Of a stretch of DNA of 63,175 nt, positions 12,686 through 27,314 are shown one piece after another. The stretch comes from Candidatus Rokuibacteriota bacterium. GTDB lineage: Bacteria; Methylomirabilota; Methylomirabilia; Rokubacteriales; CSP1-6. The stretch covers positions 1 to 63,175 of the forward strand of contig QHSP01000043.1 of assembly GCA_003220495.1 (NCBI GenBank), given 5' to 3'. The notes under the pieces were generated by a model. It was not told the DNA's origin and made no database searches. It was given only the letters and a program-made list of their open reading frames with translations. Each line of letters starts with the position of its first letter. The first letter of the stretch is position 1. Made by a program: the position numbers and the translations under genes.

Positions 12686-12922
12686 TTAGATGCTGCGAGG
12701 AGCGGATTGGGGTGACGCGATGGGGTTCCGCTGCCGTCGCAGAGCGGGCGGCGCGAGAGCTCGGCGCGCGGCGACGGCGCCCGCGAGGCAGCAGACGATC
12801 AGCGAGAATAGCGCTCCGGCCGTACCCATCAGCACTTGTCCGGCGTTTGCGATACCAGCAAGCCCTGTCGGCAGGACGCCCCCGACGAGACCCAGCGCGA
12901 TCAGACCGATACCCACTCTCAT
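12686..12922 (-). CDS. Small inner-membrane protein, 78 aa
   Basis: The protein has two hydrophobic segments (residues 1-22, IGLIALGLVGGVLPTGLAG, and about 28-50, VLMGTAGALFSLIVCCLAG) and a basic C-terminal tail. I do not recognise the family. GGGAGG lies 8 nt before the ATG. A sigma-54 type promoter lies just upstream and the palindromic GTAA box lies about 85 bp beyond it. That places this gene in the same putative stress regulon as the genes at 22-25 kb. Confidence 0.65.
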   Translation of the reverse strand: MRVGIGLIALGLVGGVLPTGLAGIANAGQVLMGTAGALFSLIVCCLAGAVAARRALAPPALRRQRNPIASPQSAPRSI

Positions 12923-12949: not shown

Positions 12950-12964
12950 GCAATTGAAGTGCCA
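12950..12964 (-). promoter_or_regulatory. Sigma-54 promoter for the small membrane protein
   Basis: On the minus strand the sequence is TGGCAC-TTCAA-TTGC. This matches the -24/-12 consensus, with GG and GC 12 nt apart. Transcription would start near 12938, giving a very short leader before the ribosome binding site and the ATG at 12922. Confidence 0.75.
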
Positions 12965-13048
12965 TCGTGTCGCATACGAGAGGTGCACATCGAAGCCCAC
13001 GAAATGTCGGACGGTCGTGATCGCACGCTCCACTCGACGAAGCAATCT

Positions 13049-13071
13049 TTACCGGGTAACTCTTACCGGGT
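13049..13071. promoter_or_regulatory. Palindromic enhancer-like box, site A
   Basis: The sequence reads TTAC-CGG-GTAA-CTC-TTAC-CGG-GT: alternating half-sites every 7 bp, including GTAA-N3-TTAC at 13056-13066. It lies about 85 bp upstream of the minus-strand sigma-54 promoter at 12950-12964, a normal place for an enhancer-binding-protein site. It is also 32 bp before the cyclic glucan synthase start and could affect that gene as well. Confidence 0.65.
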
Positions 13072-13102
13072 GTTCGCTTGGCGAACACACACTGATCGCC
13101 CG

Positions 13103-16100
13103 ATGACCCTCTTCGGGGCGGAGCCTATTCGTGCCGAGCTCCTGAGCGTCGAGCGGCTCGAGGAGATGGCCGAGACCATCGCGCGCCATCGCGCATCGTC
13201 GAGCCGACGACCGAACCCCGGGCTGCTGTCCCGCACGCGCGAAAACGGACGCGTGCTGCTTCGCTGCTATCGGACGCTCGCGGCCGTCATCAACGAAGAG
13301 CGCGCGACGACGCCCGCGGCCGAGTGGCTCGTGGACAACTTCTACATCGTCGAGGAAGTGCTGAACGAGATCCGCACCGACCTGCCGCCGGGCTTCTACC
13401 GCCAGCTGCCGACGCTCGAGGAGGGCCCGCTCGCCGGCGCGCCGCGCGCGCTCGAGCTCGCGTGGACGTTCGTCGCCCATACGGACAGCCGCTTCGATCC
13501 GGCGACCCTGCAGCGCTTCGTCCTGGCCTTTCAGCACACCGAAGCGCTTCGCATCAGCGAGCTGTGGGCGGTGCCGATCGCGCTTCGATTGACTCTGATC
13601 GAGAACCTCCGCCGACTCGCGGTCGAGATCGTCGAGAGCCGCGCCGCGCGCCTCGAGGCCGACCGCCTCGCGAACCTCCTCCTGGGGCAAACGGATCTTC
13701 CGGCCGATCCGCAGGCGTTCCGCACGCTCGGCGACTCGGTCCTCACCATGTCGTTCGCGGTGCGGCTCGCCCAGCGCCTCCGTGATCAAGACCCGAACAC
13801 GACGCCGGCGGCGCGCTGGCTCGACGAGCGGCTCGCTGCTCGCGGCACCTCCACGCACGACCTCGTCCGCATCGAGCACCACCGCCAGGCCGCGGCCAAC
13901 GTGACGGTGCGAAACGTGATCACCAGCCTTCGCGTCATGGCGACCTTCGACTGGACCGACTTCGTCGAGAAGGTGAGCCTGATCGACCGTCTCTTCCGCG
14001 CCGAGAGCGAGTTCGGCGCGATGGACTTCGCCACCCGCGACCGCTATCGCCACGCGGTCGAAGATCTGGCCCGCGGATCGGGACGCTCGGAGATCAACGT
14101 GGCCCGCCAGGCCCTGACCCTCGCGGGCCACCGCGAGCGACGCACGGAGGATCTCGGCTACTACCTGATCTCGAAGGGGCGGCCGAGTCTCGAGCACGCG
14201 CTCGGCTACCAAATCTCGCTGCGGCAGCGACTGACCCGCGCCTACATGGCCTCGGCGACGTGGAGCTATCTGGGGTCGATCGCGATCGTGACGGCCTTTC
14301 TCCTGTGCCTGCCGATCCTGTTCACGAACACCCTCGGCGTGAGCCTGATCGTCGTCCTCGCCGTCGCGGCGCTCGCGGCGCTGCCCGCCTCGGACGCGGC
14401 GACCGCGCTCGTCAACCGCGCCGTCGTCGAGATGCTGCCGCCGCGCGCCCTGCCGCGGTTCGAGCTGGCCGACGGCGTGCCGCCCGAGCTCAAGACCCTG
14501 GTCGTCGTGCCGACGCTCCTCACCGGCGCGGCGCAGATCGCCGAGCAGATCGCGCGACTGGGCGTCCACTATCTCGCGAACGACGACGGCGAGCTACGCT
14601 TCGCGCTGCTGTCGGACTGGACGGATTCCGCCGCGGAGCACGCGCCCGACGACGAGCCCCTGCTCGCGGCCGCGCGCGCGGGCATCGACGAGCTGAACCG
14701 GCGGTACGGCCCAGCCGGCGGAGGCGAAGCGCGCTTCCATCTGTTCCACCGCCGACGCCTCTGGAGCAAGAGCGAGGCGCGCTGGATGGGCTGGGAGCGC
14801 AAGCGCGGCAAGCTGCACGAGCTCAATCGCCTCTTGCGCGGCGCGACCGACACCTCGTTCATCGTCGAGACGTCCAACGTCCCGTCGTCGATTCGCTTCG
14901 TGATCACGCTGGACGCCGATACCCAGCTTCCGCGCGGCGCCGCGTCGCGGCTCGTCGGCACCCTGGCGCACCCGCTGAACCGGCCCCGGCTCGAGCCGCG
15001 CGAAGGTCGCGTCGTCGAGGGCTACGGCATCCTCCAGCCGCGGATCGCGCCGACCCTGCCCACCGAGCGCGAGGGCTCGCTCTTTCGGCGCGTGTTTTCC
15101 GGTCCCGCCGGCGTCGATCCCTATGCCGCCGCGGTCTCGGACGTCTACCAGGATCTCTTCGCCGAGGGCTCGTACACCGGCAAGGGGATCTACGACATCG
15201 ACGCCTTCGAGCGAGCGCTCGAGGGACGGGTGCCGGAAAACACGCTGCTCAGCCACGATCTCTTCGAGGGGCTCTTCGCGCGGGCCGCGCTCGTCACCGA
15301 CATCGAGCTCTTCGAGGACTTTCCCGCTCGTTACGAGGTCGCGGCGGCGCGTCAGCACCGCTGGGCGCGCGGCGACTGGCAGCTCTTGCCGTGGCTGATC
15401 CGCGGCGCCGCCGGCGCGGGCGCTTCGCGGGCCAGGATCCCGACGATCGGCCGCTGGAAGATGCTCGACAACTTGCGGCGGACGCTCTCGGCTCCCGGCG
15501 CCTATCTCACGCTCCTGCTCGCGTGGACCTTGCCGGCCGGCGCGCCGCTGGTCTGGACCAAGCTGGTTCTTCTCTGCCTCGCGCTGCCCGCGCTCGTTCC
15601 GGTATCGGCGGAGCTGATTCCGCGGCGGCCCGGCGGCTCCAAGCGCGCTTACCTCCGCGGCCTCGGCGAGAGCCTGGCGCTGGCCGGCGCCCAGATCGCG
15701 CTCGGCCTCACCTTCCTCGCGCACCAGGCATGGCTCATGGGCGACGCCGTCGTCCGGACATTGCTCCGCCTCGTCGTGACCCGACGGCGGATGCTCGAGT
15801 GGGTCTCGGCCGCGCAGGTGAAGTCGAGCGCCCGGCTCGACCTCGGCCGGACCTACTCGGACATGTCGGGCGCCCTCGTGCTGGCGTCCGTGGCCGGGCT
15901 GGTCGCAGCCTTCAGCGCGGGCGAGATCCGGGCGGTCGCGGTGACGTTCGTCATCCTCTGGTTTCTTTCACCCGTGGTAGCGCGCTGGATCAGCCGCCCG
16001 GTGGCCACGCGACCACCCGACCAGCTGAGCGTGGACGAGCGGCAGCGCATCGTGGCGACGGCGAGAAGGAGCTGGCGCTTCTTCGAGACGTTCGTGACCG

Positions 16101-19100
16101 CCGAAGACCATGCCCTGCCTCCCGACAACTTCCAGGAGGATCCACGGCCCGTCGTGGCGCACCGGACTTCGCCGACCAACATGGGCGTCTATCTGCTGTC
16201 GACCGTGGCCGCGCGGGATCTCGGCTTCATCGGAACGCTCGACGCGATCGATCGGCTCCAGGCCACCCTGGCGACGATCTCGGACCTCGAACGCTACCGC
16301 GGGCATCTCTACAACTGGTACGACACGCGCTCGCTCCGGCCCCTGGAGCCCCGCTACGTGTCTTCCGTCGACAGCGGCAATCTTGCCGGCCACCTGAGCG
16401 TCCTCGCCGTCGCCGCCCGCGAGCGCGTTCGCCGTCCGATCGTCGGAGTCGAGATCCACCGGGGCATCGATGCCGCGCTCGCCCTCCTGCGTGAGGCGCT
16501 TGCGTCGGAGTCTCGCGCTCCTGTGGACGAGCTCCGCGCCGCCCTGGCCGCCGAGCCGCCCACGATCGCCGCCTGGCCGAGCCGTCTTCGCGAGCTCGCG
16601 ACCGCCGTCCGGGGACTCGGCGATCGGGCCAGGACACTGCCCGCCGTTGCGGGAGCGGATGCCGTCGTGTGGGCGGACGTCGCCCTGGCGACGATCGCGT
16701 CCCATCAGCGCGACTTCGACGCGATCGCGCCATGGTTCGAAGGGCTCGACGACGTTCGACGCGCGCTTCCCGCCGACCGGCAGGAGGCGGCGAGCGCCGT
16801 CGCGAGTTTGCTCGACGCCCCGGCCCCGCTCTGCGATCTGCCGGAGCTCGCGCGCGCGGCGGCACGCGAGCTCGCCGGCGGCCCCCTCGACCGCGGCCTT
16901 CTTGCGCCGACACTCGAGGCGCTCGAGGAGTCGGCGCGAGCCGCCGAGAGCCTGCTGAAGAGTCTCGACGAGGTGGCGCACGCCGCGCGCGAGCTCTTCG
17001 ACGGGATGGATTTCGCATTCCTGTTCGACCAGCCCCGCCGGATCTTCGCCATCGGCTATCGAGTCGCCGACGGATCGCTCGACGAAGGGGGCTACGATCT
17101 CCTGGCCTCGGAGGCGCGGCTCACGAGCTTCGTCGCGATCGCCCGGGGCGACGTGCCGGCCGTGCACTGGTTCCGGCTCGCGCGCCCGATGACGCCGGTC
17201 GAGTCCGGCATCGCGCTGGTCTCGTGGTCGGGCTCGATGTTCGAGTACCTGATGCCCGGGCTCGTCATGCGGGAGCCCGACGGCAGCCTGCTCGAGCAGA
17301 CGTGCCGCCTCGCCGTCCAGCGCCAGATCTCCTACGCGCAGGCCCGCGGCGTCCCCTGGGGCATCTCGGAATCGGCCTACAACGTCCGCGACCTCGACCT
17401 GACCTACCAGTACTCGAGCTTCGGCGTGCCGGGGCTCGGTCTCGAGCGGGGGCTCGGCGACGATCTCGTGATCGCGCCCTACGCCACGGCGCTGGCGGCG
17501 ATGGTCGATTCCGCCGCGGCGGCCCGCAACTTCGGCGAGCTCGAGCGCGCCGGCGGGCTGGGGCCGTACGGCTTCTACGAGGCGCTCGACTACACGCGCT
17601 CACGCCTGCCGGAGGGCGCACGCGTGGCCGTGATCCGCACCTACATGGCGCACCACCAGGGCATGACGATCGTCGCGCTCGCCAACGTGCTCCTCGACGG
17701 CCTCATGCGCGAGCGGTTCCATAGCCAGGCGATGGTGCAGGCCACCGAGCTCATCTTGCAGGAGCGCGCGCCGCGTGACGTCCCGGTGATGCGGCCCCGG
17801 GCGAAGGAAATTCCGGCGCCCGAGGCCACACGGGCGCTGGTGGCGCCGACCTCGCGGCACTTCACTTCGGCCTCCGATCCGGTGCCGCACACCCACCTGC
17901 TCTCCAACGGCCACTATTTCGTGATGCTGACGGCGGCCGGCGGCGGCTACAGCCACTGCGGCGGGCTCGCCGTGACCCGCTGGCGCGAGGACACGACGCG
18001 GGATCATTGGGGGACTTTCATCTTCCTGCGCGACACGCGGAGCGGCGCCGTGTGGTCGGCCGGCTTCCAGCCTTCGGGCGTCGAGCCCGACCACTACGAG
18101 GTGACGTTCCTGGAGGACCGCGTCGAGATCCAGCGCCGCGACGGGAATCTCCTGACGCGGCTCGAGGTGCTCGTCTCACCGGAGGACGACGCCGAGATCC
18201 GCCGCGTCACCTTGACGAACCTCGACAGCGAGCCGCGCGAGATCGAGGTGACGTCGTACGCCGAGGTCGTGCTGGCGCCGCCCCGAGACGACGCGGCTCA
18301 TCCGACGTTCTCCAACCTGTTCGTCCAGACCGAGGCCGTGGCCGAGCTCGACACGCTCCTGGCCACGCGCCGGCCGCGGACGCCCGACGAGCCGCGAGTC
18401 TGGGCCGCGCACGTCGTCTTCGTGGAGGGCACGAGCACCGGCGGCTCGCAGTACGAGACCGAGCGCGGGCGGTTCCTCGGACGCGGCCGCGGCATCCGCA
18501 CGCCGATGTCGATGATCGAGGGCCGGCCCCTCTCGAACACGACGGGCGCCGTGCTCGATCCGATCTTCAGCCTGAGGCGCCGCCTGCGGCTGGCGCCCGG
18601 GCGAAGCGGGCGCGTCGTGTTCTCGACGCTGGTGGCCGGCTCGCGGGTGGCCGCGCTCGCCAGGGCCGACAAGTACCGCGACCCCGCGACGTTCGAGCGC
18701 ATCGCCACCCTGGCGTGGACGCAGGCGCAGGTCCAGCTCCATCACCTGAGCGTCACGCCGGAGGAGGCGCACGTCTTTCAGCAGATCGCCAACCGGATCC
18801 TCTACGCCGATCCACGGCTCCGCGCCCCCGCCGCGGTCCTCGCGCGCAACACGCTCGGGCCCGCGGCCCTCTGGGCGCACCGGATCTCCGGCGACCTGCC
18901 CATCGTGCTCGTGCGCATCGACGAGATCGAGGATCGCGAGATCGTGCGCCAGCTCTTGCGCGCGCACGAATACTGGCGGATGAAAGGGCTCGCGGTCGAT
19001 CTCGTGATCCTGAACGAGAAGCCGCCCTCCTACCTGCAGGATCTCCAGGCTGCGCTCGAAGGACTGGTGCGCGCCGGACGGCCCACGCTCGGCGCCACGC

Positions 19101-21724
19101 CGGAGGGATCGATCGTGGTCCTGCGCGCCGACCTCCTGTCCGCCGCCGAGCGCGACGGTCTCGCGGCGGCGGCGCGGGTGATGCTGCCGAGTCGGCTGGG
19201 CACGCTGGCCGAGCAGGTCGGCCGCGCCGAGCGCGCGGCGGCGCCGCGGCGCCGCGAGCGGCGGCCGCCACAAGACCGGGAGCCAGCCCTCGAGGCGCCG
19301 CCCGCGCGGCCGCATCGCGAATTCGACAACGACCTCGGCGGCTTCGTCGAGGACGGCCGCGAGTACTCGATCGTGCTCGACGAAGGTCACTGGACGCCGG
19401 CGCCGTGGATCAACGTGATCGCCAACGAGCGCCTCGGCTTTCAGGTGTCGGAGTCGGGCGCCGGTTACACGTGGGCCCTCAACAGCCGCGAGAATCAGCT
19501 CACGCCGTGGTCGAACGATCCGGTCAGCGACCAGCCGGGCGAGGTGATCTACGTGCGCGACGACGAGAGCGGCCGGCTCTGGGGCCCGACGCTCCTGCCG
19601 ATCCGGGAGGACGCCTGGTCGTACGAGTGTCGTCACGGGCACGGCTACAGTCGATTCACCCACGACTCGCACGGCATCGCGCTCGAGCTCCTGCAGTACG
19701 TGCCGCTCGACGACCCGGTGAAGATCTCGCGCCTGCGGATCACCAACCGCTCGCGCCGCTCCCGGCGCCTGACCGTCACCGCGTACGTCGAGTGGGTGCT
19801 CGGCGCCGCGCGGACGATCACGGCGCCCCACGTGGTGACCGAGCTGGACGAAGCGACCGGCGCGCTCTTCGCGCGCAACGCCTGGACGCTCGACTTCGCC
19901 GGTCGCGTCGCGTTCCTCGATCTCGCGGGCAAGCAGACGGCGTGGACGGGGGATCGCGCCGAGATCCTCGGCCGCAACGGGACCCTCGATCATCCCGACG
20001 CGCTCGAGCGTGGCGAGCGGCTCTCGGGCCGGCTCGGCGGCGGGCTGGACCCCTGCGGCGCGCTGCAAGTCACACGCCTGCTCGCCGCGGGCGCCAGCAC
20101 GGAAGTCGTCGTCTTCCTGGGTCAGGGCTCGTCGGTCGACGAGGCGCGCGCAGTCGTCCAGCGCTATCGCGCCGTCGACCTGGATGGCGTCCTCGACGCG
20201 GTCACCACCCGGTGGGACGATCTGCTGGCGGCCGTGCTGGTCAAGACCCCCGATCGATCCTTCGACCTCATGCTCAACCGCTGGCTCCTCTACCAGGCGC
20301 TCGCCTGCCGGCTGTGGGCCCGCGCGGGCTTCTATCAGGCGAGCGGCGCGTACGGCTTCCGCGATCAGCTCCAGGACGTCATGGCCTTGACCGTGGCGGC
20401 CCGTGACGTCACGCGCGCGCATCTCTGCCGGGCCGCGGCGCGACAGTTTCGCGAGGGGGACGTGCAGCACTGGTGGCATCCACCCTCGGGCCGCGGCGTG
20501 CGGACGCGGATCTCCGACGATCGGGTCTGGCTCGCGTTCGCGACGGCGCACTACATGGCGGTCACCGGGGATACGACCGTCCTCGACGAGCAGATCCCGT
20601 TCGTCGAGGGGCCCGTGCTGGCCGACGAGAGCCTCGAGGCGTACTTCGAGCCCACGGTGTCAGTCGAGCGCGCGTCGCTCTTCGAGCACTGCGCCCGCGC
20701 GCTCGACCGGAGCCTGGCCGTTGGAAGTCACGGCCTTCCGCTCATCGGGACCGGCGACTGGAACGACGGGATGAACCGAGTCGGCGAGAAGGGGCGGGGC
20801 GAGAGCATCTGGCTCGGCTGGTTCCTCCACACGACCTTGGCCCAGTGGGCCCCGATCGCGCAAGCGCGCGGCGACGCCGAGCGCGCGAGAGCATGGCGTA
20901 AGCACCTCGAGACGCTCGGACACGCGCTCGAGACCGCGGGCTGGGACGGCGACTGGTACCGGCGAGCGTACTTCGACGACGGCGCGCCGCTGGGCTCCAC
21001 CGAGAACGCGGAGTGTCGCATCGACTCGATCGCGCAGTCGTGGGCCGTGCTCTCCGGGGCCGCCGACCCCCAGCGCGCCGCGCGCGCCATGAACGCGGTC
21101 GAAGAATATCTCGTGCACCGGGAGCAGGCGATCGTTCTGCTCTTCACGCCGCCCTTCCTGCGCGGCGCGAAGGACCCGGGCTACGTCAAAGGCTATCCGC
21201 CGGGCGTCAGGGAGAACGGCGGTCAGTACACGCACGCCGCCATCTGGGCGATCATGGCCTTCGCCGCCCTCGGCGACGGCGACCGAGCCGGCGAGCTCTT
21301 CGCGCTCCTGAATCCCATCAATCACACGAGCACGCGCGCCGGGCTCTATCGCTATCGGGTCGAGCCCTACGTGGTCGCCGGCGACGTGTACGCCGAGGCG
21401 CCCCATTCGGGCCGCGGCGGCTGGACCTGGTACACGGGCTCGGCGGGCTGGATGTATCGGGCGGGGATCGAGTGGCTGCTGGGCTTCCGGCTCCGGGGCG
21501 CGTTGCTCTTCGTCGACCCGTGTATCCCGCGGACCTGGAGCGGCTTTTCAATCACCTTTCGCTACCACGCGTCGCGCTACGAGGTGCGCGTCGAGAATCC
21601 TCACGGTGTCACTCGCGGTGTGTCGCGCGTCGAGATCGACGGCGTGCAGGCCGAGGCCGGGCAAGCGGCCCTGCCCCTGGTCGACGACGGCGCGACCCAT
21701 CAGGTGCGGGTCTGGCTCGGCTGA
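13103..21724 (+). CDS. ndvB: Cyclic beta-1,2-glucan synthase (NdvB/ChvB type)
   Basis: The 2873-aa inner-membrane enzyme is close in length to rhizobial NdvB/ChvB and Brucella Cgs. Paired membrane segments (about 388-430) precede a GT84 glucosyltransferase domain with FVITLDADTQLP (near 596) and QHRWARGDW (near 752). Further membrane spans lie at about 795-835, 855-880 and 920-965. A large glucoamylase-like region follows, then beta-sandwich domains and a C-terminal GH94 phosphorylase-like domain with TGDWNDGMNRVG (near 2550), which sets chain length. The product, a periplasmic cyclic glucan, serves osmoadaptation and envelope functions. The ATG at 13103 was chosen because earlier in-frame codons lie in the regulatory region. 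No Cgt/NdvA-type exporter gene is adjacent. Confidence 0.95.
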   Translation: MTLFGAEPIRAELLSVERLEEMAETIARHRASSSRRPNPGLLSRTRENGRVLLRCYRTLAAVINEERATTPAAEWLVDNFYIVEEVLNEIRTDLPPGFYRQLPTLEEGPLAGAPRALELAWTFVAHTDSRFDPATLQRFVLAFQHTEALRISELWAVPIALRLTLIENLRRLAVEIVESRAARLEADRLANLLLGQTDLPADPQAFRTLGDSVLTMSFAVRLAQRLRDQDPNTTPAARWLDERLAARGTSTHDLVRIEHHRQAAANVTVRNVITSLRVMATFDWTDFVEKVSLIDRLFRAESEFGAMDFATRDRYRHAVEDLARGSGRSEINVARQALTLAGHRERRTEDLGYYLISKGRPSLEHALGYQISLRQRLTRAYMASATWSYLGSIAIVTAFLLCLPILFTNTLGVSLIVVLAVAALAALPASDAATALVNRAVVEMLPPRALPRFELADGVPPELKTLVVVPTLLTGAAQIAEQIARLGVHYLANDDGELRFALLSDWTDSAAEHAPDDEPLLAAARAGIDELNRRYGPAGGGEARFHLFHRRRLWSKSEARWMGWERKRGKLHELNRLLRGATDTSFIVETSNVPSSIRFVITLDADTQLPRGAASRLVGTLAHPLNRPRLEPREGRVVEGYGILQPRIAPTLPTEREGSLFRRVFSGPAGVDPYAAAVSDVYQDLFAEGSYTGKGIYDIDAFERALEGRVPENTLLSHDLFEGLFARAALVTDIELFEDFPARYEVAAARQHRWARGDWQLLPWLIRGAAGAGASRARIPTIGRWKMLDNLRRTLSAPGAYLTLLLAWTLPAGAPLVWTKLVLLCLALPALVPVSAELIPRRPGGSKRAYLRGLGESLALAGAQIALGLTFLAHQAWLMGDAVVRTLLRLVVTRRRMLEWVSAAQVKSSARLDLGRTYSDMSGALVLASVAGLVAAFSAGEIRAVAVTFVILWFLSPVVARWISRPVATRPPDQLSVDERQRIVATARRSWRFFETFVTAEDHALPPDNFQEDPRPVVAHRTSPTNMGVYLLSTVAARDLGFIGTLDAIDRLQATLATISDLERYRGHLYNWYDTRSLRPLEPRYVSSVDSGNLAGHLSVLAVAARERVRRPIVGVEIHRGIDAALALLREALASESRAPVDELRAALAAEPPTIAAWPSRLRELATAVRGLGDRARTLPAVAGADAVVWADVALATIASHQRDFDAIAPWFEGLDDVRRALPADRQEAASAVASLLDAPAPLCDLPELARAAARELAGGPLDRGLLAPTLEALEESARAAESLLKSLDEVAHAARELFDGMDFAFLFDQPRRIFAIGYRVADGSLDEGGYDLLASEARLTSFVAIARGDVPAVHWFRLARPMTPVESGIALVSWSGSMFEYLMPGLVMREPDGSLLEQTCRLAVQRQISYAQARGVPWGISESAYNVRDLDLTYQYSSFGVPGLGLERGLGDDLVIAPYATALAAMVDSAAAARNFGELERAGGLGPYGFYEALDYTRSRLPEGARVAVIRTYMAHHQGMTIVALANVLLDGLMRERFHSQAMVQATELILQERAPRDVPVMRPRAKEIPAPEATRALVAPTSRHFTSASDPVPHTHLLSNGHYFVMLTAAGGGYSHCGGLAVTRWREDTTRDHWGTFIFLRDTRSGAVWSAGFQPSGVEPDHYEVTFLEDRVEIQRRDGNLLTRLEVLVSPEDDAEIRRVTLTNLDSEPREIEVTSYAEVVLAPPRDDAAHPTFSNLFVQTEAVAELDTLLATRRPRTPDEPRVWAAHVVFVEGTSTGGSQYETERGRFLGRGRGIRTPMSMIEGRPLSNTTGAVLDPIFSLRRRLRLAPGRSGRVVFSTLVAGSRVAALARADKYRDPATFERIATLAWTQAQVQLHHLSVTPEEAHVFQQIANRILYADPRLRAPAAVLARNTLGPAALWAHRISGDLPIVLVRIDEIEDREIVRQLLRAHEYWRMKGLAVDLVILNEKPPSYLQDLQAALEGLVRAGRPTLGATPEGSIVVLRADLLSAAERDGLAAAARVMLPSRLGTLAEQVGRAERAAAPRRRERRPPQDREPALEAPPARPHREFDNDLGGFVEDGREYSIVLDEGHWTPAPWINVIANERLGFQVSESGAGYTWALNSRENQLTPWSNDPVSDQPGEVIYVRDDESGRLWGPTLLPIREDAWSYECRHGHGYSRFTHDSHGIALELLQYVPLDDPVKISRLRITNRSRRSRRLTVTAYVEWVLGAARTITAPHVVTELDEATGALFARNAWTLDFAGRVAFLDLAGKQTAWTGDRAEILGRNGTLDHPDALERGERLSGRLGGGLDPCGALQVTRLLAAGASTEVVVFLGQGSSVDEARAVVQRYRAVDLDGVLDAVTTRWDDLLAAVLVKTPDRSFDLMLNRWLLYQALACRLWARAGFYQASGAYGFRDQLQDVMALTVAARDVTRAHLCRAAARQFREGDVQHWWHPPSGRGVRTRISDDRVWLAFATAHYMAVTGDTTVLDEQIPFVEGPVLADESLEAYFEPTVSVERASLFEHCARALDRSLAVGSHGLPLIGTGDWNDGMNRVGEKGRGESIWLGWFLHTTLAQWAPIAQARGDAERARAWRKHLETLGHALETAGWDGDWYRRAYFDDGAPLGSTENAECRIDSIAQSWAVLSGAADPQRAARAMNAVEEYLVHREQAIVLLFTPPFLRGAKDPGYVKGYPPGVRENGGQYTHAAIWAIMAFAALGDGDRAGELFALLNPINHTSTRAGLYRYRVEPYVVAGDVYAEAPHSGRGGWTWYTGSAGWMYRAGIEWLLGFRLRGALLFVDPCIPRTWSGFSITFRYHASRYEVRVENPHGVTRGVSRVEIDGVQAEAGQAALPLVDDGATHQVRVWLG

Positions 21725-21751
21725 ACCGCGCGCCGCGAGTACCGCGCGCGC

Positions 21752-21970
21752 CTAGCGGCGGGCCGTGGCGATCAGCAAGACCACGCCGCAGACGAGCGCC
21801 GCGCCGCCCAGGATCGGCGGCAGCGGGATGGTCTCTTTCGTTTCCTTGGTGGCCGTGATCGGGCCGACCTCGAGTACCTTTTCGCGCTTCGTGTAGGTGA
21901 TCCCCTCATAGGCGAGGCCGACCAGGCCGACCACGATCAGCACGATCGCGACGATCTTGATCGCTTGCAT
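21752..21970 (-). CDS. DUF3185-like small membrane protein, 72 aa
   Basis: An N-terminal hydrophobic segment (AIKIVAIVLIVVGLVGLAYE) is followed by a polar middle (TYTKREKVLEVGPITATKE) and a second hydrophobic segment (LPPILGGAALVCGVVLLIA). This two-span pattern with the YTK..K..LGP-like middle matches DUF3185 proteins, whose function is unknown. GGGTGGGAG precedes the ATG. It lies downstream of the 54-aa hydrophilic gene on the same strand, with a strong hairpin between them. Confidence 0.7.
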   Translation of the reverse strand: MQAIKIVAIVLIVVGLVGLAYEGITYTKREKVLEVGPITATKETKETIPLPPILGGAALVCGVVLLIATARR

Positions 21971-22019
21971 GCTCCCACCCTCTTTTCGTCCGACTGGACG
22001 CCGTGGCCCTTCGTGCGTC

Positions 22020-22060
22020 GAGCTGGAGACCCCGGCCCGGCGGGCCGAGATCTCCAGCTC
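22020..22060. terminator. Large nested hairpin
   Basis: A perfect 10-bp outer stem (GAGCTGGAGA at 22020-22029 / TCTCCAGCTC at 22051-22060) encloses an inner GGCCC/GGGCC stem. It lies 67-107 nt beyond the stop of the minus-strand 54-aa gene and upstream of the DUF3185-like gene, and could act as a terminator or mRNA-stability element. No U-tract is visible. Confidence 0.55.
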
Positions 22061-22126
22061 TCTATGCAATGCGCCCGGAGTCGCGACGGGCCGAGCGCTG
22101 TATTTTCCCGCTGGTAGTCGAAAACG

Positions 22127-22291
22127 TCAGCGACGGGGCTGCGGGCGCTCGGCACGATCCGCGTCCTCGGGGTCCGCGTGCCATTCCTCGCGCCGATCGT
22201 CCGGACGACGCCGCTCGTCCCTTTGCGCCTTCTGATCGCCGCGGCTCGGATCGCTCCGCTGCTCGCGCGGCTTGTCGTGGGCCTGCTGCAC
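22127..22291 (-). CDS. Small highly charged hydrophilic protein, 54 aa
   Basis: The sequence is almost entirely Arg, Asp, Glu, Gln, Pro and Ala (SRGDQKAQRDERRRPDDRRE), with a single Trp and no hydrophobic core, so it should be intrinsically disordered, like stress hydrophilins. The GTG start has GAGGAGAG 6 nt upstream. A sigma-54 type promoter lies 78 nt upstream. The family is not recognised and the stress role is inferred from composition and promoter. Confidence 0.55.
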   Translation of the reverse strand: MQQAHDKPREQRSDPSRGDQKAQRDERRRPDDRREEWHADPEDADRAERPQPRR

Positions 22292-22368
22292 GGATCTCTC
22301 CTCTACGCGAGAGATCGCCTGTGTGGTGCTTCTGGAGGGCCGGACGATACACACGGCGACGTGCTGTG

Positions 22369-22383
22369 GCAAAGGCCGTGCCG
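22369..22383 (-). promoter_or_regulatory. Sigma-54 promoter for the hydrophilic small gene
   Basis: On the minus strand the sequence is CGGCAC-GGCCT-TTGC, with the invariant GG/GC spacing of 12 nt. The expected start site is near 22357, leaving a leader of about 65 nt. Site B lies about 100 bp upstream, and the plus-strand DUF748 promoter shares it. Confidence 0.6.
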
Positions 22384-22484
22384 AGATCGCCGTCACGCCG
22401 GGAGTGACCGGAGAACGCGCAACGCGACGCGAACTTGCGGAGCTCTCCGGCTTCCGCGTTCGCGCCAGTCGACGCGACGGGCTT

Positions 22485-22503
22485 GTAACTCTTACCGAGA
22501 AGG
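22485..22503. promoter_or_regulatory. Palindromic enhancer-like box, site B (shared by divergent promoters)
   Basis: The sequence GTAA-CTC-TTAC-CGA-GAAG contains the GTAA-N3-TTAC core at 22485-22495. It is flanked by a plus-strand sigma-54 promoter (22540-22555) and a minus-strand one (22369-22383). Confidence 0.65.
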
Positions 22504-22539
22504 ATTGTCCTGCCTCGCGCTTTTTCCACGCTTCACGCC

Positions 22540-22555
22540 GGGCACATGTCTTGCT
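22540..22555 (+). promoter_or_regulatory. Sigma-54 promoter for the DUF748 gene
   Basis: The sequence is GGGCAC-ATGTC-TTGCT, with correct -24/-12 spacing. Initiation would fall near 22566. That excludes the in-frame GTG at 22566 as a translation start and favours the TTG at 22584. Confidence 0.7.
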
Positions 22556-22583
22556 CGCGTGAGTCGTGCTGGAGGAGGCGGAG

Positions 22584-24221
22584 TTGTATACCCGATCCCG
22601 GTTCTCGACGATCTCGCGCGCCGTGCTACGCGGCGCTCGCCGGCACTGGATCGCGATCGGCATTCCGATCGCGGTCGTGCTGGTCATCGCCTACACCATC
22701 GCGTTTCTGATCGACGAGCCGCTGCGCCGGTACACCGAGGCGAAGATGAACCACGCGCTCAAGGGCTACACCGCGCGCATCGGCAAGCTCGACTTCCACC
22801 CGCTGGGCTACGCGCTCGACCTGTACGACGTGGTGATCACGCAAGACGCCTATCCCGACCCTCCGGTGCTCCGCATCGCGAGCCTGAGCGCGAGCGTCCA
22901 CTGGCCCGCGCTGCTCGATGGGCGCCTCGTCGGCGACGTCGAGCTCGAAAAGCCCGAAGTCTACCTCAACCTGCCGCAAGCGAGGAAGGAGATCGCCGAC
23001 CCAACCCCGGTGAAGGAGCGCGGCTGGCAGGACGCGCTGGAGGCCGTCTACCCGCTGAAGATCAACCATTTCGAGATTCGCGACGGCGACATCACCTACG
23101 TCGACGAGGGCCCGTTCAAGCCGTTGCGCATCCGCAACCTCGAGCTCGTGGCGACCAATATCCGCAACCGTCCCGCCGAGCGTCCCTATCCATCCGACGT
23201 CCGGTTCTCGGCGCTCGTGTTCGAGTCGGGGCGCCTCTCCGCTGACGGTCAGGCCGACTTCCTGGCGGAGCCCAATCCGGCCTTCCGGGGTGACGTCGAG
23301 CTCGCCGACATCGAGCTCGACTACTTCAAGCCGATCACGAATCGCTACAACCTCTGGGTCGACAAGGGCGTGCTCTCGGCGACGGGCCATGCCGAGTACG
23401 CCCAGGAGACGAAGACGGTCGCGTTGTCACGCGCAGCCATCGACGGGATTCATGTGGACTACGTGCACACGGCGCCGACGGCCGGCGCCGAGCGCGAGAC
23501 GCGCGCACAGGCCGCGACCGCCGCCAAGCAGGCGAGCAACGCCCCTGATCTGGTCGTTCGGATCAGCGAGCTGCGCCTCACGAAGAGCACGGTCGGGTTC
23601 GTCAACAAGGCGACCACGCCGTCGTACCGCGTCTTCCTCGCGGACACCGACGGCACATTGACGAATCTCAGCAACCAGCAGATCGAGGGCAGCGCCGTGG
23701 CCAAGCTCAAAGGCGCCTTCATGGGGACCGGCACGGCCACCGCCGACGCGACCTTCAGGGCGGACAAGGCCGGCCCGAGCTTCGACATCGGCGTGCGCAT
23801 CGAAGAAGTCGACGTCACCAAGCTGAACGACATCTTCCGCGCGTACGGGCGGTTCGACACATCGGCCGGGCACTTCCACCTCTATTCCGAGCTCGACGCG
23901 AAGGATGGCGTCGTCACGGGATACATCAAGCCGTTGTTCAACGACCTCAAGATCTACGACAAGCGGCAGGACAAGTCGAAGCCGCTCGTTCGGAAGATGT
24001 ACGAGCGCGTCGTGAGCGGGGTGGCCAAGGTTCTCAAGAATCGGCCGCGTGAGGAAGTCGCCACCAAGGCCCAGGTGCTCGGGCGGATCGACAACCCCAA
24101 GGTCGGCACCGTGGCCGCCGTGGTCCGCCTCGTCCAGAACGCCCTCTTCAAGGCCATCCTGCCCGGCTTCGACCTCGAAGTTTCGCGAGCCGGCCGCGAG
24201 GAGAGTCGGGCGGAGAAATGA
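22584..24221 (+). CDS. DUF748/AsmA-like envelope protein
   Basis: The 545-aa protein has one N-terminal membrane anchor (HWIAIGIPIAVVLVIAYTIAFLID) and a long periplasmic beta-rich region typical of DUF748 (YTARIGKLDFHPLGYALDL, INHFEIRDGDITYVDEG, AHFHLYSELDAKDG-like strands, VTGYIKPLFNDLKIYDK). The family is related to AsmA/TamB-type envelope proteins. GGAGGAGG (22571-22578) sits 5 nt before TTG at 22584, and the predicted transcript starts near 22566, so I prefer TTG over the upstream GTG. Its promoter is of sigma-54 type. Confidence 0.85.
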   Translation: MYTRSRFSTISRAVLRGARRHWIAIGIPIAVVLVIAYTIAFLIDEPLRRYTEAKMNHALKGYTARIGKLDFHPLGYALDLYDVVITQDAYPDPPVLRIASLSASVHWPALLDGRLVGDVELEKPEVYLNLPQARKEIADPTPVKERGWQDALEAVYPLKINHFEIRDGDITYVDEGPFKPLRIRNLELVATNIRNRPAERPYPSDVRFSALVFESGRLSADGQADFLAEPNPAFRGDVELADIELDYFKPITNRYNLWVDKGVLSATGHAEYAQETKTVALSRAAIDGIHVDYVHTAPTAGAERETRAQAATAAKQASNAPDLVVRISELRLTKSTVGFVNKATTPSYRVFLADTDGTLTNLSNQQIEGSAVAKLKGAFMGTGTATADATFRADKAGPSFDIGVRIEEVDVTKLNDIFRAYGRFDTSAGHFHLYSELDAKDGVVTGYIKPLFNDLKIYDKRQDKSKPLVRKMYERVVSGVAKVLKNRPREEVATKAQVLGRIDNPKVGTVAAVVRLVQNALFKAILPGFDLEVSRAGREESRAEK

Positions 24222-24229
24222 CCGGGCCG

Positions 24230-24247
24230 GTAAGACTTACCGAGTAA
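24230..24247. promoter_or_regulatory. Palindromic enhancer-like box, site C
   Basis: The sequence GTAA-GAC-TTAC-CGA-GTAA is the most perfect copy: three half-sites at 7-bp spacing. It begins 9 nt after the DUF748 stop and lies 72 bp upstream of the sigma-54 promoter of the YtxH-like gene. Confidence 0.7.
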
Positions 24248-24319
24248 GAATGCGCGGATGGACTCTACGTTTCCACCGTCGTCCACAGGATTTCCACCGC
24301 GGTCGACGCCCGCGAGGTG

Positions 24320-24335
24320 TGGCACCCCTCTTGCT
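24320..24335 (+). promoter_or_regulatory. Sigma-54 promoter for the YtxH-like gene
   Basis: The sequence is TGGCAC-CCCTC-TTGCT, a full match to the -24/-12 consensus core. It lies 58 nt before the ATG at 24393. Confidence 0.8.
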
Positions 24336-24392
24336 CGGCGAACAGACTCGACGTCTCGACGAGGGACGCCTCAACGAGAAAGGAGGAGGGCG

Positions 24393-24623
24393 ATGTTTCG
24401 ATTCGTCTTCGGAGCGCTCATCGGAGGGTTCGCCGTCTGGTACTGGGGCGAGGAAATCCGCGCATACACCGAAAGCCGAACGGTCGGCGTTCGCCGGAGC
24501 GCGGCCGACGCGATCCGCTCGGTCGGCAAGAAGGCCGAAGACGTGCTGGATCGGACGAAGGAACACGTGAGCGCCGTGTCTCAGTCAGGACAGGACGCGA
24601 TCCGTCCGCCCCAGCATCACTGA
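24393..24623 (+). CDS. YtxH-like small membrane protein, 76 aa
   Basis: A glycine-containing membrane helix at residues 3-20 (RFVFGALIGGFAVWYWG) is followed by a charged amphipathic helix (AADAIRSVGKKAEDVLDRTK). This is the layout of YtxH-type general stress proteins. AGGAGGAGGG sits directly before the ATG. It is followed by the 56-aa basic gene 32 nt downstream, probably on the same transcript. Expression is expected to be sigma-54 dependent. Confidence 0.7.
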   Translation: MFRFVFGALIGGFAVWYWGEEIRAYTESRTVGVRRSAADAIRSVGKKAEDVLDRTKEHVSAVSQSGQDAIRPPQHH

Positions 24624-24655
24624 TCGACAGGCTTTCGCACCCGGAAGGAAGGATC

Positions 24656-24826
24656 ATGCCGAAAGGTAGGCGTTTGCGCGGCGTCGGCGCGAAGGAGCGA
24701 CGCCAGTACGAGCACATCAAGGCATCCGCCCGGAAGTCCGGCCGCTATGGCCGGCGTGCCAAGGAAGTCGCGGCGCGGACGGTCATGAAGCAGCACAAGG
24801 CGAAGGGCCACGCCAAGGGCCGCTAG
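24656..24826 (+). CDS. Small basic protein, 56 aa (resembles the so-called plasmid stabilization protein family)
   Basis: The protein is rich in Lys, Arg and His (KERRQYEHIKASARKSGR, AKGHAKGR). The spacing of KERRQYEHI, a Gly/Tyr turn, KEVAARTV and a Lys/Gly tail recalls small proteins annotated as plasmid stabilization proteins. Those have no proven role in plasmid maintenance, and nothing here suggests a plasmid. GGAAGGA precedes the ATG. The likely properties are nucleic-acid binding or disorder. Confidence 0.6.
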   Translation: MPKGRRLRGVGAKERRQYEHIKASARKSGRYGRRAKEVAARTVMKQHKAKGHAKGR

Positions 24827-24896
24827 ACCCGCCGCCGGCGACCACGCGGCGCGCTCTCCCGCGGGGCCGCCGCCGTCGGCGCCGACCCCGCCCCTC

Positions 24897-24914
24897 GTAA
24901 GAATTACCAGGTAG
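24897..24914. promoter_or_regulatory. Palindromic enhancer-like box, site D
   Basis: The sequence GTAA-GAA-TTAC-CAG-GTAG lies 82 bp upstream of the sigma-54 promoter of the BON lipoprotein gene. The surrounding 24827-25043 gap holds this box, the promoter and the ribosome binding site. Confidence 0.65.
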
Positions 24915-24996
24915 GGTTTTCGCGCCTCGGGGCATTCATCGAGGCGCCGGCGTCGACCGACCCCGTCGACACAAGGGATCGCGTGCGTGTCGTCAC

Positions 24997-25012
24997 TGGC
25001 ACAGGGTTTGCC
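24997..25012 (+). promoter_or_regulatory. Sigma-54 promoter for the BON lipoprotein operon
   Basis: The sequence is TGGCAC-AGGGT-TTGCC with exact -24/-12 spacing. Initiation near 25023 leaves AAGGAGG (25026-25032) and the ATG at 25044 on a short leader. Confidence 0.8.
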
Positions 25013-25043: not shown

Positions 25044-25361
25044 ATGCGTTCCCTCAGAGCCCTCACGGCGCTCACGCTCCTCGCGCTCACCTCGGTCGTT
25101 CTGGTCGCCTGCGCGTCGACGACCGGCAAAAGTGTCGGTGAGAACGTCGACGATGTGACGATCACCAGCGAGGTCAAGGCCAAGCTCGCCGCCGAGAAAA
25201 TCTCGACCCTGACCAACATCAGCGTGGACACGGATCGACGCACCGTCTATCTGGCCGGGACGGTCGACGATGCCGAGATGCGCGCCAGGGCCGAAGCGAT
25301 CGCGCGGAGCGTGACGCACGTCAGCAGCGTCGTCAACAACCTCACGGTACGAACCCAGTAG
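25044..25361 (+). CDS. BON-domain lipoprotein (OsmY-like)
   Basis: The 105-aa lipoprotein has a signal peptide ending in lipobox LVAC (Cys23), then one BON domain (DDVTITSEVKAKLAAEKI, RRTVYLAGTVDDAEMRARAE, THVSSVVNNLTV). BON domains bind lipids and are found in osmotic-shock proteins such as OsmY and in envelope-maintenance lipoproteins. AAGGAGG precedes the ATG. Its stop is 13 nt before the AI-2E-family gene, so it likely leads an operon with that gene and the penicillin-binding protein. It is controlled by a sigma-54 type promoter. Confidence 0.85.
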   Translation: MRSLRALTALTLLALTSVVLVACASTTGKSVGENVDDVTITSEVKAKLAAEKISTLTNISVDTDRRTVYLAGTVDDAEMRARAEAIARSVTHVSSVVNNLTVRTQ

Positions 25362-25374
25362 CGCTCCGGCGCGA

Positions 25375-27207
25375 GTGACCCCTCTCAAGCCGCTCGACGC
25401 GTCCGGGACCTCGCGGCTCGCCGTCCTGGGCGCGCTGATCCTGGCGATCGCGTGCCTCTACTGGGCACGCATCGTGTTCATCCCGATCGCGCTGGCGCTG
25501 CTGGCAACGTTCCTCCTGAGCCCAGTGGTCGCGCTGCTGCGTCGGATGGGGCTGCATCACGTCGCCGCGGTCGTCATCGTCTTCGTGCTGACGGTCCTGC
25601 TGGTCGCGGGGCTCGGGTGGGGGCTGTTCAGCCAGCTCACCACGCTCACCGACGATCTGCCGCAGTACCGCGCGACCATCGCACGCAAGATCGCTGACGT
25701 GCAGCGCGTGGGCCGCGGCGGCCCGCTCCAGAAGGTGGAGGAAACCGCGCATGACGTGATGGCGCAGATCGAGCGCGTGCACCCGTCCACCACCAAGCCG
25801 CTGCCGGTCGTCGTGACCTCGCCCAATCCGCTCTGGCAGATCCCGAAGATCGTCGAGCCGGTCGGGGGCGCGGTCTTCGTCCTGGTGCTCGTCGTCTTCA
25901 TGCTCATCCAGCAGCAGGAGCTCCGCGCGCGCGTCGTCCGACTCTTCGGTTCCGACCGGCTCGCCGAGACGACCCGCGCGCTCGACGAGGCCAGCGCGCG
26001 GATCAGCAGCTACCTGCTGACCCAGACCGCGCTCAACGCGAGCTTCGGCGTCACGATCGCGCTCGGTCTGTTCGTGCTGGGCTTGCCCTTCGCGCTGACG
26101 TGGGGCGTCTTCGGCGCGCTCATGCGTTTCATTCCGTACGCCGGTGCCTGGGTGGCCGCCTCGGTTCCGGTGCTGGTGAGCCTGGCGGTCTTCGACGGCT
26201 GGGTGAAGCCCCTGCTCATCGTCGGGCTTTTCGCCGCCACGGAGGCGATCATCGCCTTCATCCTGGAGCCCCTGTTCTTCGCCCGCAGCGCCGGCGTGTC
26301 GTCGATCGCCCTGCTGATCTCGGTCGCCTTCTGGACGTGGCTCTGGGGTCCGATCGGCCTCGCGCTCGCGATCCCTCTCACCGTGTGGCTCGTGGTGTTC
26401 TCGCACACGATCAAGGGCCTCGAGTTCATCGGGATCCTGGTCGACGACGATCCGGGCTTCGCTCCGCACGTCATCTTCTATCAGCGCGCCCTGGCCGGCG
26501 ACGCTCAGGAGGCGGCCGAGCTCGTCGCCGAGGCGGTGAAGTCCGGCTCTGACCTGGCGGCCTACGACTCGATCCTGGTGCCGGCGCTCGCCCGCGCCCG
26601 TCGCGATCACGACGTGGGTCAGCTGCCGGCCGCCGAGTACGCCCACGTGATCGAGACGACGCGCGCGGTGCTCGACCGGGCGATCGCGGAGGGGCCGGCG
26701 CGCGGGCCGGAGGCGCCGGGCGAAGCGCCCCGGCGCGTGATCATCGCGGGCTGTCCAGTCCAGGACGAAGCCGACCGCGTCGTGCTCACGACGTTGCGCC
26801 GTCTCCTCGAGCGCGACGGCTACGCGGTGCAGATCGCGCCGGCCGGCGCGCTCGTCGCGGAGACGATCGCCGCCGTCGTGGCGATGACGCCCGTGGCGAT
26901 CATCGTGAGCTCCGTGGAAGAGCGCGGGCGCGCGCGCCATTTCGTGAAGCGGCTCCGCGCGGCGTGTCCGGAGAGTGTGATCGTCGTCGGATGCTGGGGG
27001 CTTCAGGGCTCGGCGAAGCTCCGAGCCGACCTCTGCGCGGCGGGCGCCGACGATGTCGTCACCACGCTGGGCCAGGCGCGGAGCGACCTGCTCCGCTTGA
27101 CGCCGGCGCCGGAGCGGGCGCCCACGAAAGACAGCGAGCCGACTTCTTCCCGAGCACTCGCGCGGGACGGCGTCGGTCTCGCGACGTCGGCAAGCGGAGC
27201 GTCATGA
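25375..27207 (+). CDS. AI-2E family permease with an extra C-terminal soluble domain
   Basis: The 610-aa protein has an N-terminal region (about 15-355) with the AI-2E/PerM topology: paired N-terminal helices, a soluble loop, and the conserved ALMRFIPYAGAWVAA and FILEPLFFARSAGVSS regions. Family members range from signal exporters to Na+/H+ antiporters, so the cargo is unknown. After a linker, residues about 450-575 form a soluble alpha/beta domain (RVIIAGCPVQDEADRVVL, LLERDGYAVQIAPAG, VAMTPVAIIVSS, GCWGLQGSAKL). It resembles a B12-binding or receiver-like Rossmann fold without the DxHxxG motif. The start is GTG, 13 nt after the BON gene. Confidence 0.8.
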   Translation: MTPLKPLDASGTSRLAVLGALILAIACLYWARIVFIPIALALLATFLLSPVVALLRRMGLHHVAAVVIVFVLTVLLVAGLGWGLFSQLTTLTDDLPQYRATIARKIADVQRVGRGGPLQKVEETAHDVMAQIERVHPSTTKPLPVVVTSPNPLWQIPKIVEPVGGAVFVLVLVVFMLIQQQELRARVVRLFGSDRLAETTRALDEASARISSYLLTQTALNASFGVTIALGLFVLGLPFALTWGVFGALMRFIPYAGAWVAASVPVLVSLAVFDGWVKPLLIVGLFAATEAIIAFILEPLFFARSAGVSSIALLISVAFWTWLWGPIGLALAIPLTVWLVVFSHTIKGLEFIGILVDDDPGFAPHVIFYQRALAGDAQEAAELVAEAVKSGSDLAAYDSILVPALARARRDHDVGQLPAAEYAHVIETTRAVLDRAIAEGPARGPEAPGEAPRRVIIAGCPVQDEADRVVLTTLRRLLERDGYAVQIAPAGALVAETIAAVVAMTPVAIIVSSVEERGRARHFVKRLRAACPESVIVVGCWGLQGSAKLRADLCAAGADDVVTTLGQARSDLLRLTPAPERAPTKDSEPTSSRALARDGVGLATSASGAS

Positions 27208-27314
27208 CACTCTCTTTCGAGACCCGCCGTCGCGGTGGCGGCGATGATGGCGCAGGTCCTGGCGACGAGCATTCTCCGCACGATGGTCAGGCAGCGCCGG
27301 CGCTGATCCAGTGA
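27204..27314 (+). CDS. Possible 36-aa linker gene, doubtful
   Basis: A short frame begins with ATG overlapping the AI-2E stop (ATGA). It ends in a TGA that overlaps the GTG start of the penicillin-binding protein (GTGA). This arrangement would couple all three genes translationally. The peptide is Gly/Asp/Pro-rich with no recognisable domain (FETRRRGGGDDGAGPGDE). It could simply be an untranslated spacer. Confidence 0.3.
   Translation: MTLSFETRRRGGGDDGAGPGDEHSPHDGQAAPALIQ

Follow-up and report, generated by a model that had tools for sequence, protein, structure and literature searches.

A probable sigma-54 regulon of Rokubacteria with GTAA-N3-TTAC enhancer boxes and a candidate two-component activator

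Introduction

The PrsK/PrsR regulon of PEP-CTERM genes is built on a 17-nt motif (motif 1), ending in TTTACA, that is followed after a spacer of 62.8 nt on average by a -24/-12 motif, and its activator PrsR was found by phylogenetic profile (Haft et al. 2006, PMC1569441). In Escherichia coli, ZraR binds the spacer between zraP and zraS, and a single ZraR target was reported by genomic SELEX (PMC8249747). Two response-regulator activators of Desulfovibrio vulgaris, DVU1419 and DVU3381, have been assigned to envelope stress and count their own operons among their targets (PMC4641369). Rokubacteria are an uncultured lineage (PMC5712423), so their regulation must be read from sequence.

Here we analyse a window of 63,175 nucleotides, contig C97 of a 5.98-Mb Candidatus Rokuibacteriota genome (G000), and compare it with 57 genomes of the family. 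A sequence-only reading of this window had proposed a sigma-54 regulon built on a repeated GTAA-N3-TTAC enhancer box; the present analysis supports that interpretation and adds weight to it by naming a candidate activator. With a probability of roughly 0.8, the boxes are enhancers of one Rokubacteria sigma-54 regulon that has mostly envelope targets and, as its activator, a kinase/regulator pair encoded on contig C130.

The PrsK/PrsR regulon (PMC1569441) is the closest conceptual precedent: the same motif-spacer-(-24/-12) architecture precedes many scattered genes and the activator was found by the same route, but the PrsR spacer, with its mean of 62.8 nt, is shorter than the 90-bp mean gap in Rokubacteria. 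The C130 regulator scores below the PrsR cut-off (TIGR02915; 410.9 bits against 502.6), and there were no PEP-CTERM proteins among the Pfam-scanned targets, a subset of all targets. The best-scoring NCBIfam model for both the C130 regulator and its kinase is that of E. coli AtoSC; however, the kinase scores 293 against 646 and the regulon targets are unrelated to acetoacetate metabolism. The regulator's score with the AtoC model (NF008469), 460, is likewise below the cut-off of 714. The D. vulgaris activators (PMC4641369), likened here by description and not by site sequence, differ in having small regulons.

ZraSR resembles the C130 system in pairing an autoregulated sigma-54 response regulator with a histidine kinase, in its extracytoplasmic stress context and in a similar helix-turn-helix. 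It differs in that the C130 kinase also falls under the ZraS cut-off, no ZraP-like protein is present, and a multi-gene regulon stands against one target. A literature search for the box as a written sequence, beyond whose reach lie logos existing as figures only (PrsR, Desulfovibrio), found no paper. The regulon is previously undescribed and new for the lineage, though the two-component sigma-54 kind to which it belongs is well known.

Boxes and promoters in the window

The four GTAA-N3-TTAC palindromes of the sequence-only reading lie exactly where it had placed them (Table 1), against 0.03 expected from shuffles, none of 100 shuffles reaching four. Its five sigma-54 elements are all perfect GGCAC-N5-TTGC matches, with limits that had been off by about one base; shuffles predict 0.58 such elements in the window. 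Every box does have a promoter, but the distances, put earlier at about 37-100 bp, are 45-102 bp when measured edge to edge. From the local density of sigma-54 elements, 0.015 promoters would be expected beside the four boxes and five are seen (P ~6e-12). One correction concerns the box at 22485, which by itself serves two divergent promoters. The only sigma-54 promoter of box 1 is directed away from the glucan synthase gene that begins 37 bp after the box, and no sigma-54 promoter directed at that gene was found.

Table 1. Boxes, sigma-54 promoters and genes, in window coordinates except for the last row
Feature	Position	Strand	Remarks
Box 1 GTAACTCTTAC	13056..13066	no strand	extra half-site on upstream side (TTACCGG-GTAA)
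Box 2 GTAACTCTTAC	22485..22495	no strand	common to two divergent sigma-54 promoters; invariant across 4 species
Box 3 GTAAGACTTAC	24230..24240	no strand	then third half-site CGA-GTAA
Box 4 GTAAGAATTAC	24897..24907	no strand	then CAG-GTAG
Sigma-54 promoter GGCACTTCAATTGC	12950..12963	-	92 bp off box 1
Sigma-54 promoter GGCACGGCCTTTGC	22369..22382	-	102 bp off box 2
Sigma-54 promoter GGCACATGTCTTGC	22541..22554	+	45 bp off box 2
Sigma-54 promoter GGCACCCCTCTTGC	24321..24334	+	80 bp off box 3
Sigma-54 promoter GGCACAGGGTTTGC	24998..25011	+	90 bp off box 4
78-aa small membrane protein	12686..12922	-	under 12950 promoter; no Pfam family
2873-aa GH94/glycoamylase-domain protein, cyclic-glucan-synthase type	13103..21724	+	start 37 bp past box 1
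72-aa small membrane protein	21752..21970	-	second gene behind 22369 promoter
~55-aa charged hydrophilic protein	22127..22291	-	probable GTG start, from the sequence
DUF748 protein (PF05359)	22566..24221	+	ORF opens 22566; likely start TTG 22584
76-aa YtxH-like protein	24393..24623	+	no Pfam match
56-aa basic protein	24656..24826	+	no Pfam match
BON-domain lipoprotein (PF04972)	25044..25361	+	
AI-2E family transporter (PF01594)	25375..27207	+	
PBP1A-family penicillin-binding protein	27311..29281	+	TIGR02074 above cut-off
NtrC-type response regulator, candidate activator	G000:C130 16867-18375	-	preceded by box and TGGCACGACCGATGC promoter

A third half-site, described earlier as present at most boxes, does occur at three of the four in the window (TTAC before 13056, GTAA after 24230, GTAG after 24897; none at 22485) but is rare in the wider regulon, where it stands on the downstream side of eight of 90 sites. 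All eight come from the source genus, and the third half-site is no general feature of the regulon.

The regulon across genomes

A scan of the source genome for the palindrome alone gives 15 sites, against seven for a reversed control, so the box by itself is only mildly enriched and some lone boxes are chance occurrences. Eleven of the 15 have a -24/-12 element at 45-144 bp on the right side and strand, and a twelfth, on contig C53, lies just past the promoter of a neighbouring box. Four boxes are without a promoter of their own, and possibly spurious pairs exist, as on contig C21, where a convergent gene comes next. At G000:C53:18612-18809 (L084 8613-8810) the sigma-54 promoter of a DUF1344-protein gene sits between two boxes, the second of which is in the leader.

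The control count is what speaks for a chance coincidence of an AT-rich palindrome with promoter-like strings. The genome-wide scan suggested by the sequence-only reading, which had itself named a chance-level frequency of pairs as its refuting condition, excludes it: pairs at 50-110 bp number nine in the source genome against 0.08 expected, and the combined box and promoter pattern has 88 matches across the 57 family genomes, against none for the reversed pattern and four for a 4-bp box spacer. With the conservation of boxes and promoters across species, these counts have already refuted the chance reading. The 88-to-4 ratio also indicates that the 3-bp spacing of the box is itself selected.

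A consensus was drawn from 90 distinct pairs, in which the box and promoter cores and most of the gap ranges were preset by the search and so are uninformative; the mean gap in this set is 90 bp (SD 16). The unfixed positions show the preferences to be expected of genuine elements. At those of the promoter, T precedes GGCAC in 78% and G follows GGCAY in 54%; at those of the box, K (T/G) precedes GTAA in 89% and M (A/C) follows TTAC in 76%, flank preferences from which the operator becomes KGTAA-N3-TTACM. The marks of a sigma-54 regulon are found here: promoters of the TGGCAC-N5-TTGC -24/-12 type with a common enhancer site 45-144 bp away. The genome has one RpoN gene (PF04552 at G000:C131:51927-52400, E 8.6e-61).

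Phylogenetic footprinting, also proposed earlier, showed that boxes and promoters are kept at orthologous genes. The orthologous DUF748 and YtxH promoters retain their boxes and GGCAY-N5-TTGC elements despite diverging flanks. Four species compared over the DUF748 promoter region have identical 11-bp boxes and retain the sigma-54 elements on both sides, while the flanks have diverged. At the YtxH promoter, boxes like GGTAAGAYTTACCGAGTAAGAA are retained, altered at one or two positions in two species; box 3 is kept in four species, its spacer and third half-site differing by one or two bases. Remoter DUF748 homologues have retained the sigma-54 promoters and mostly not the exact boxes. Sequence statistics and conservation together establish the box, the promoter and their association.

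Target genes

The window's targets are the 78-aa small membrane protein, the charged hydrophilic protein together with the 72-aa small membrane protein, the DUF748 protein, the YtxH-like protein together with the basic protein, and the BON lipoprotein followed by the AI-2E transporter and PBP1A. The expected transcription start near 22566 makes TTG 22584 the likely start of the DUF748 protein, and gene order suggests that the penicillin-binding protein gene is co-transcribed with the BON and AI-2E genes. The 72-aa small membrane protein has a homologue that is a direct target in a relative (G007). Elsewhere in the source genome the targets are DUF1344-type and similar small secreted proteins (C1, C53), a glycosyltransferase fused to a glycoside-hydrolase-2 domain (C131) and the candidate regulator operon itself (C130). 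Those of the relatives include many DUF1344-like proteins, a trehalose-phosphatase, a DksA/TraR zinc-finger protein, bactofilin, CHRD, BrkB, a transglycosylase-associated protein and several lipoproteins. The target starts are calls of a script written for this analysis and may in some cases be incorrect.

The targets had been described as all of envelope or stress type. Over the whole set, most are small proteins that are secreted or sit in the membrane, together with enzymes acting on glycan, trehalose-phosphate and peptidoglycan. Judged from the targets, an envelope/osmotic stress role for the regulon is plausible and such stress may be its signal; by themselves the targets identify no signal.

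Candidate activator

The activator was said to lie outside the window, and a search of the contig for sigma-54 activator domains found none; the genome as a whole encodes about 30 proteins with a Sigma54_activat domain. The search for an enhancer-binding protein that co-occurs with the box, another check proposed earlier, yielded a strong candidate in the C130 regulator. Its operon reads, in order, box, promoter, small secreted protein, 73-aa protein, response-regulator activator and histidine kinase. The regulator has a receiver domain (PF00072), an AAA+ Sigma54_activat domain (PF00158) and a Fis-type helix-turn-helix (PF02954), which place it in the NtrC type, and its GAFTGA-type loop reads GSFTGA. 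The kinase has sCache_3, HAMP, PAS, HisKA and HATPase_c domains. The distance from the box of this operon to the promoter downstream is 113-116 bp (start to start) in seven species of the source genus and 90-99 bp in three species of genus g18, where the regulator is 56-58% identical.

With presence defined as a match at E up to 1e-150 in the 57 family genomes, the regulator is found in 28 genomes and the box-promoter pair in 27, and 26 have both (Fisher 8e-13). When pairs unlinked to the regulator locus are counted alone, they occur in 17 of 28 genomes with the regulator and in one of 29 without it (P 2e-6). Six genera (g7, g9, g13, g17, g19 and g23) each have members with both regulator and pair and members with neither. 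The genome-level P values are inflated because the genomes are related and not independent, and the association is weaker at genus level (12/14 vs 1/10, P 5e-4). Exceptions are G017 and G018, regulator-positive and without an exact pair, and G015, which has a pair and no regulator at the threshold; in G017 a GTAG variant of the box lies upstream of the regulator. Three control regulators among the roughly 30 activators, L016 (54/57), L028 (46/57, P 0.74) and L039 (1/57), do not track the pairs. A search for the regulator in viral contigs found none.

Some genomes hold two or three paralogues of the regulator, namely G010 (C105, C162, C83) and G056 (C19, C32), and in G010 a box-promoter pair lies upstream of the C162 paralogue. 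Pairs at G001:C209:4224-4346 and G019:C87:292492-292615 precede the gene of a different sigma-54 activator. With such paralogues and pairs, several box-reading proteins or a cascade are possible. The same observations, together with the number of activator genes and the shortness and similarity of Fis-type helix-turn-helix domains, favour the alternative that the regulon is real and is activated by another of the roughly 30 proteins, the C130 regulator sharing its site or distribution by chance. We consider this unlikely: the C130 gene is the only activator gene found in the source genome with a box before its operon, that box is conserved across genera, and the three controls, out of roughly 30 activators, fail the co-occurrence comparison.

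The conserved box before its own operon and the co-occurrence thus point to the C130 regulator as the activator. In the mechanism that we propose, the membrane histidine kinase and the NtrC-type regulator, encoded together at G000:C130, would sense an extracytoplasmic condition. The regulator would bind KGTAA-N3-TTACM, 45-144 bp from the -24/-12 promoters, and once bound would make sigma-54 polymerase open them, turning on mostly envelope genes and, by positive autoregulation, its own operon.

Comparison with ZraSR

The sites might instead belong to a ZraSR-type zinc/envelope-stress system, the C130 regulator being a ZraR orthologue and the box a known one. The E. coli K-12 zraP-zraS spacer (L258:2283-2328) has two inverted 15-bp palindromes, GAGTAAAAATGACTC and GAGTCATTTTTACTC, whose geometry is near that of the Rokubacteria box, with a matching 3-bp spacer and GTAA/GTCA half-sites; the tails of the two helix-turn-helix domains, GGNKTRAAEILGISLKTLHNKL and GGNKTEAARQLGITRKTLLAKL, resemble each other, and the targets are of envelope type. 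We nevertheless regard this as very improbable. Against the ZraR model (NF007689) the regulator scores 398 bits with a cut-off of 760, and in the tree E. coli ZraR falls outside the separate, well supported clade of the C130 regulator and its orthologues; strict membership in ZraR is thus disfavoured by scores and phylogeny. ZraP is a helical protein, unlike the operon's small secreted protein, which has no Pfam match and is predicted to fold as beta-alpha-beta-beta. Genomic SELEX reported one ZraR target (PMC8249747), and the regulon is far larger than that.

The conserved small secreted protein, first gene of the regulator operon (L078:8594-8893, minus strand), has an acidic tail and belongs to no Pfam family. 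The predicted fold (mean pLDDT 72.5, one of five models good) had no PDB match with E <0.2. The protein may act as a partner in feedback or sensing.

Discussion

Rokubacteria gain a regulon with a defined operator, a promoter class, a gene list and a named candidate activator, and small envelope proteins that had been uncharacterised, dozens in number (DUF748, DUF1344, YtxH-like, BON, CHRD), gain a common context. Purified protein would suffice for an in vitro test of the pairing of regulator and box, so culture of the organism is unnecessary.

A wider reading, which we find doubtful, would make this the core general response of Rokubacteria to envelope and desiccation/osmotic stress, in which sigma-54 and one autoregulated two-component system replace a general stress response of the ECF or sigma-B type and one genus has acquired a third half-site at some envelope promoters. 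In five genomes from other families of the class (G058, G061, G065, G073 and G086), a few box-promoter pairs are present too.
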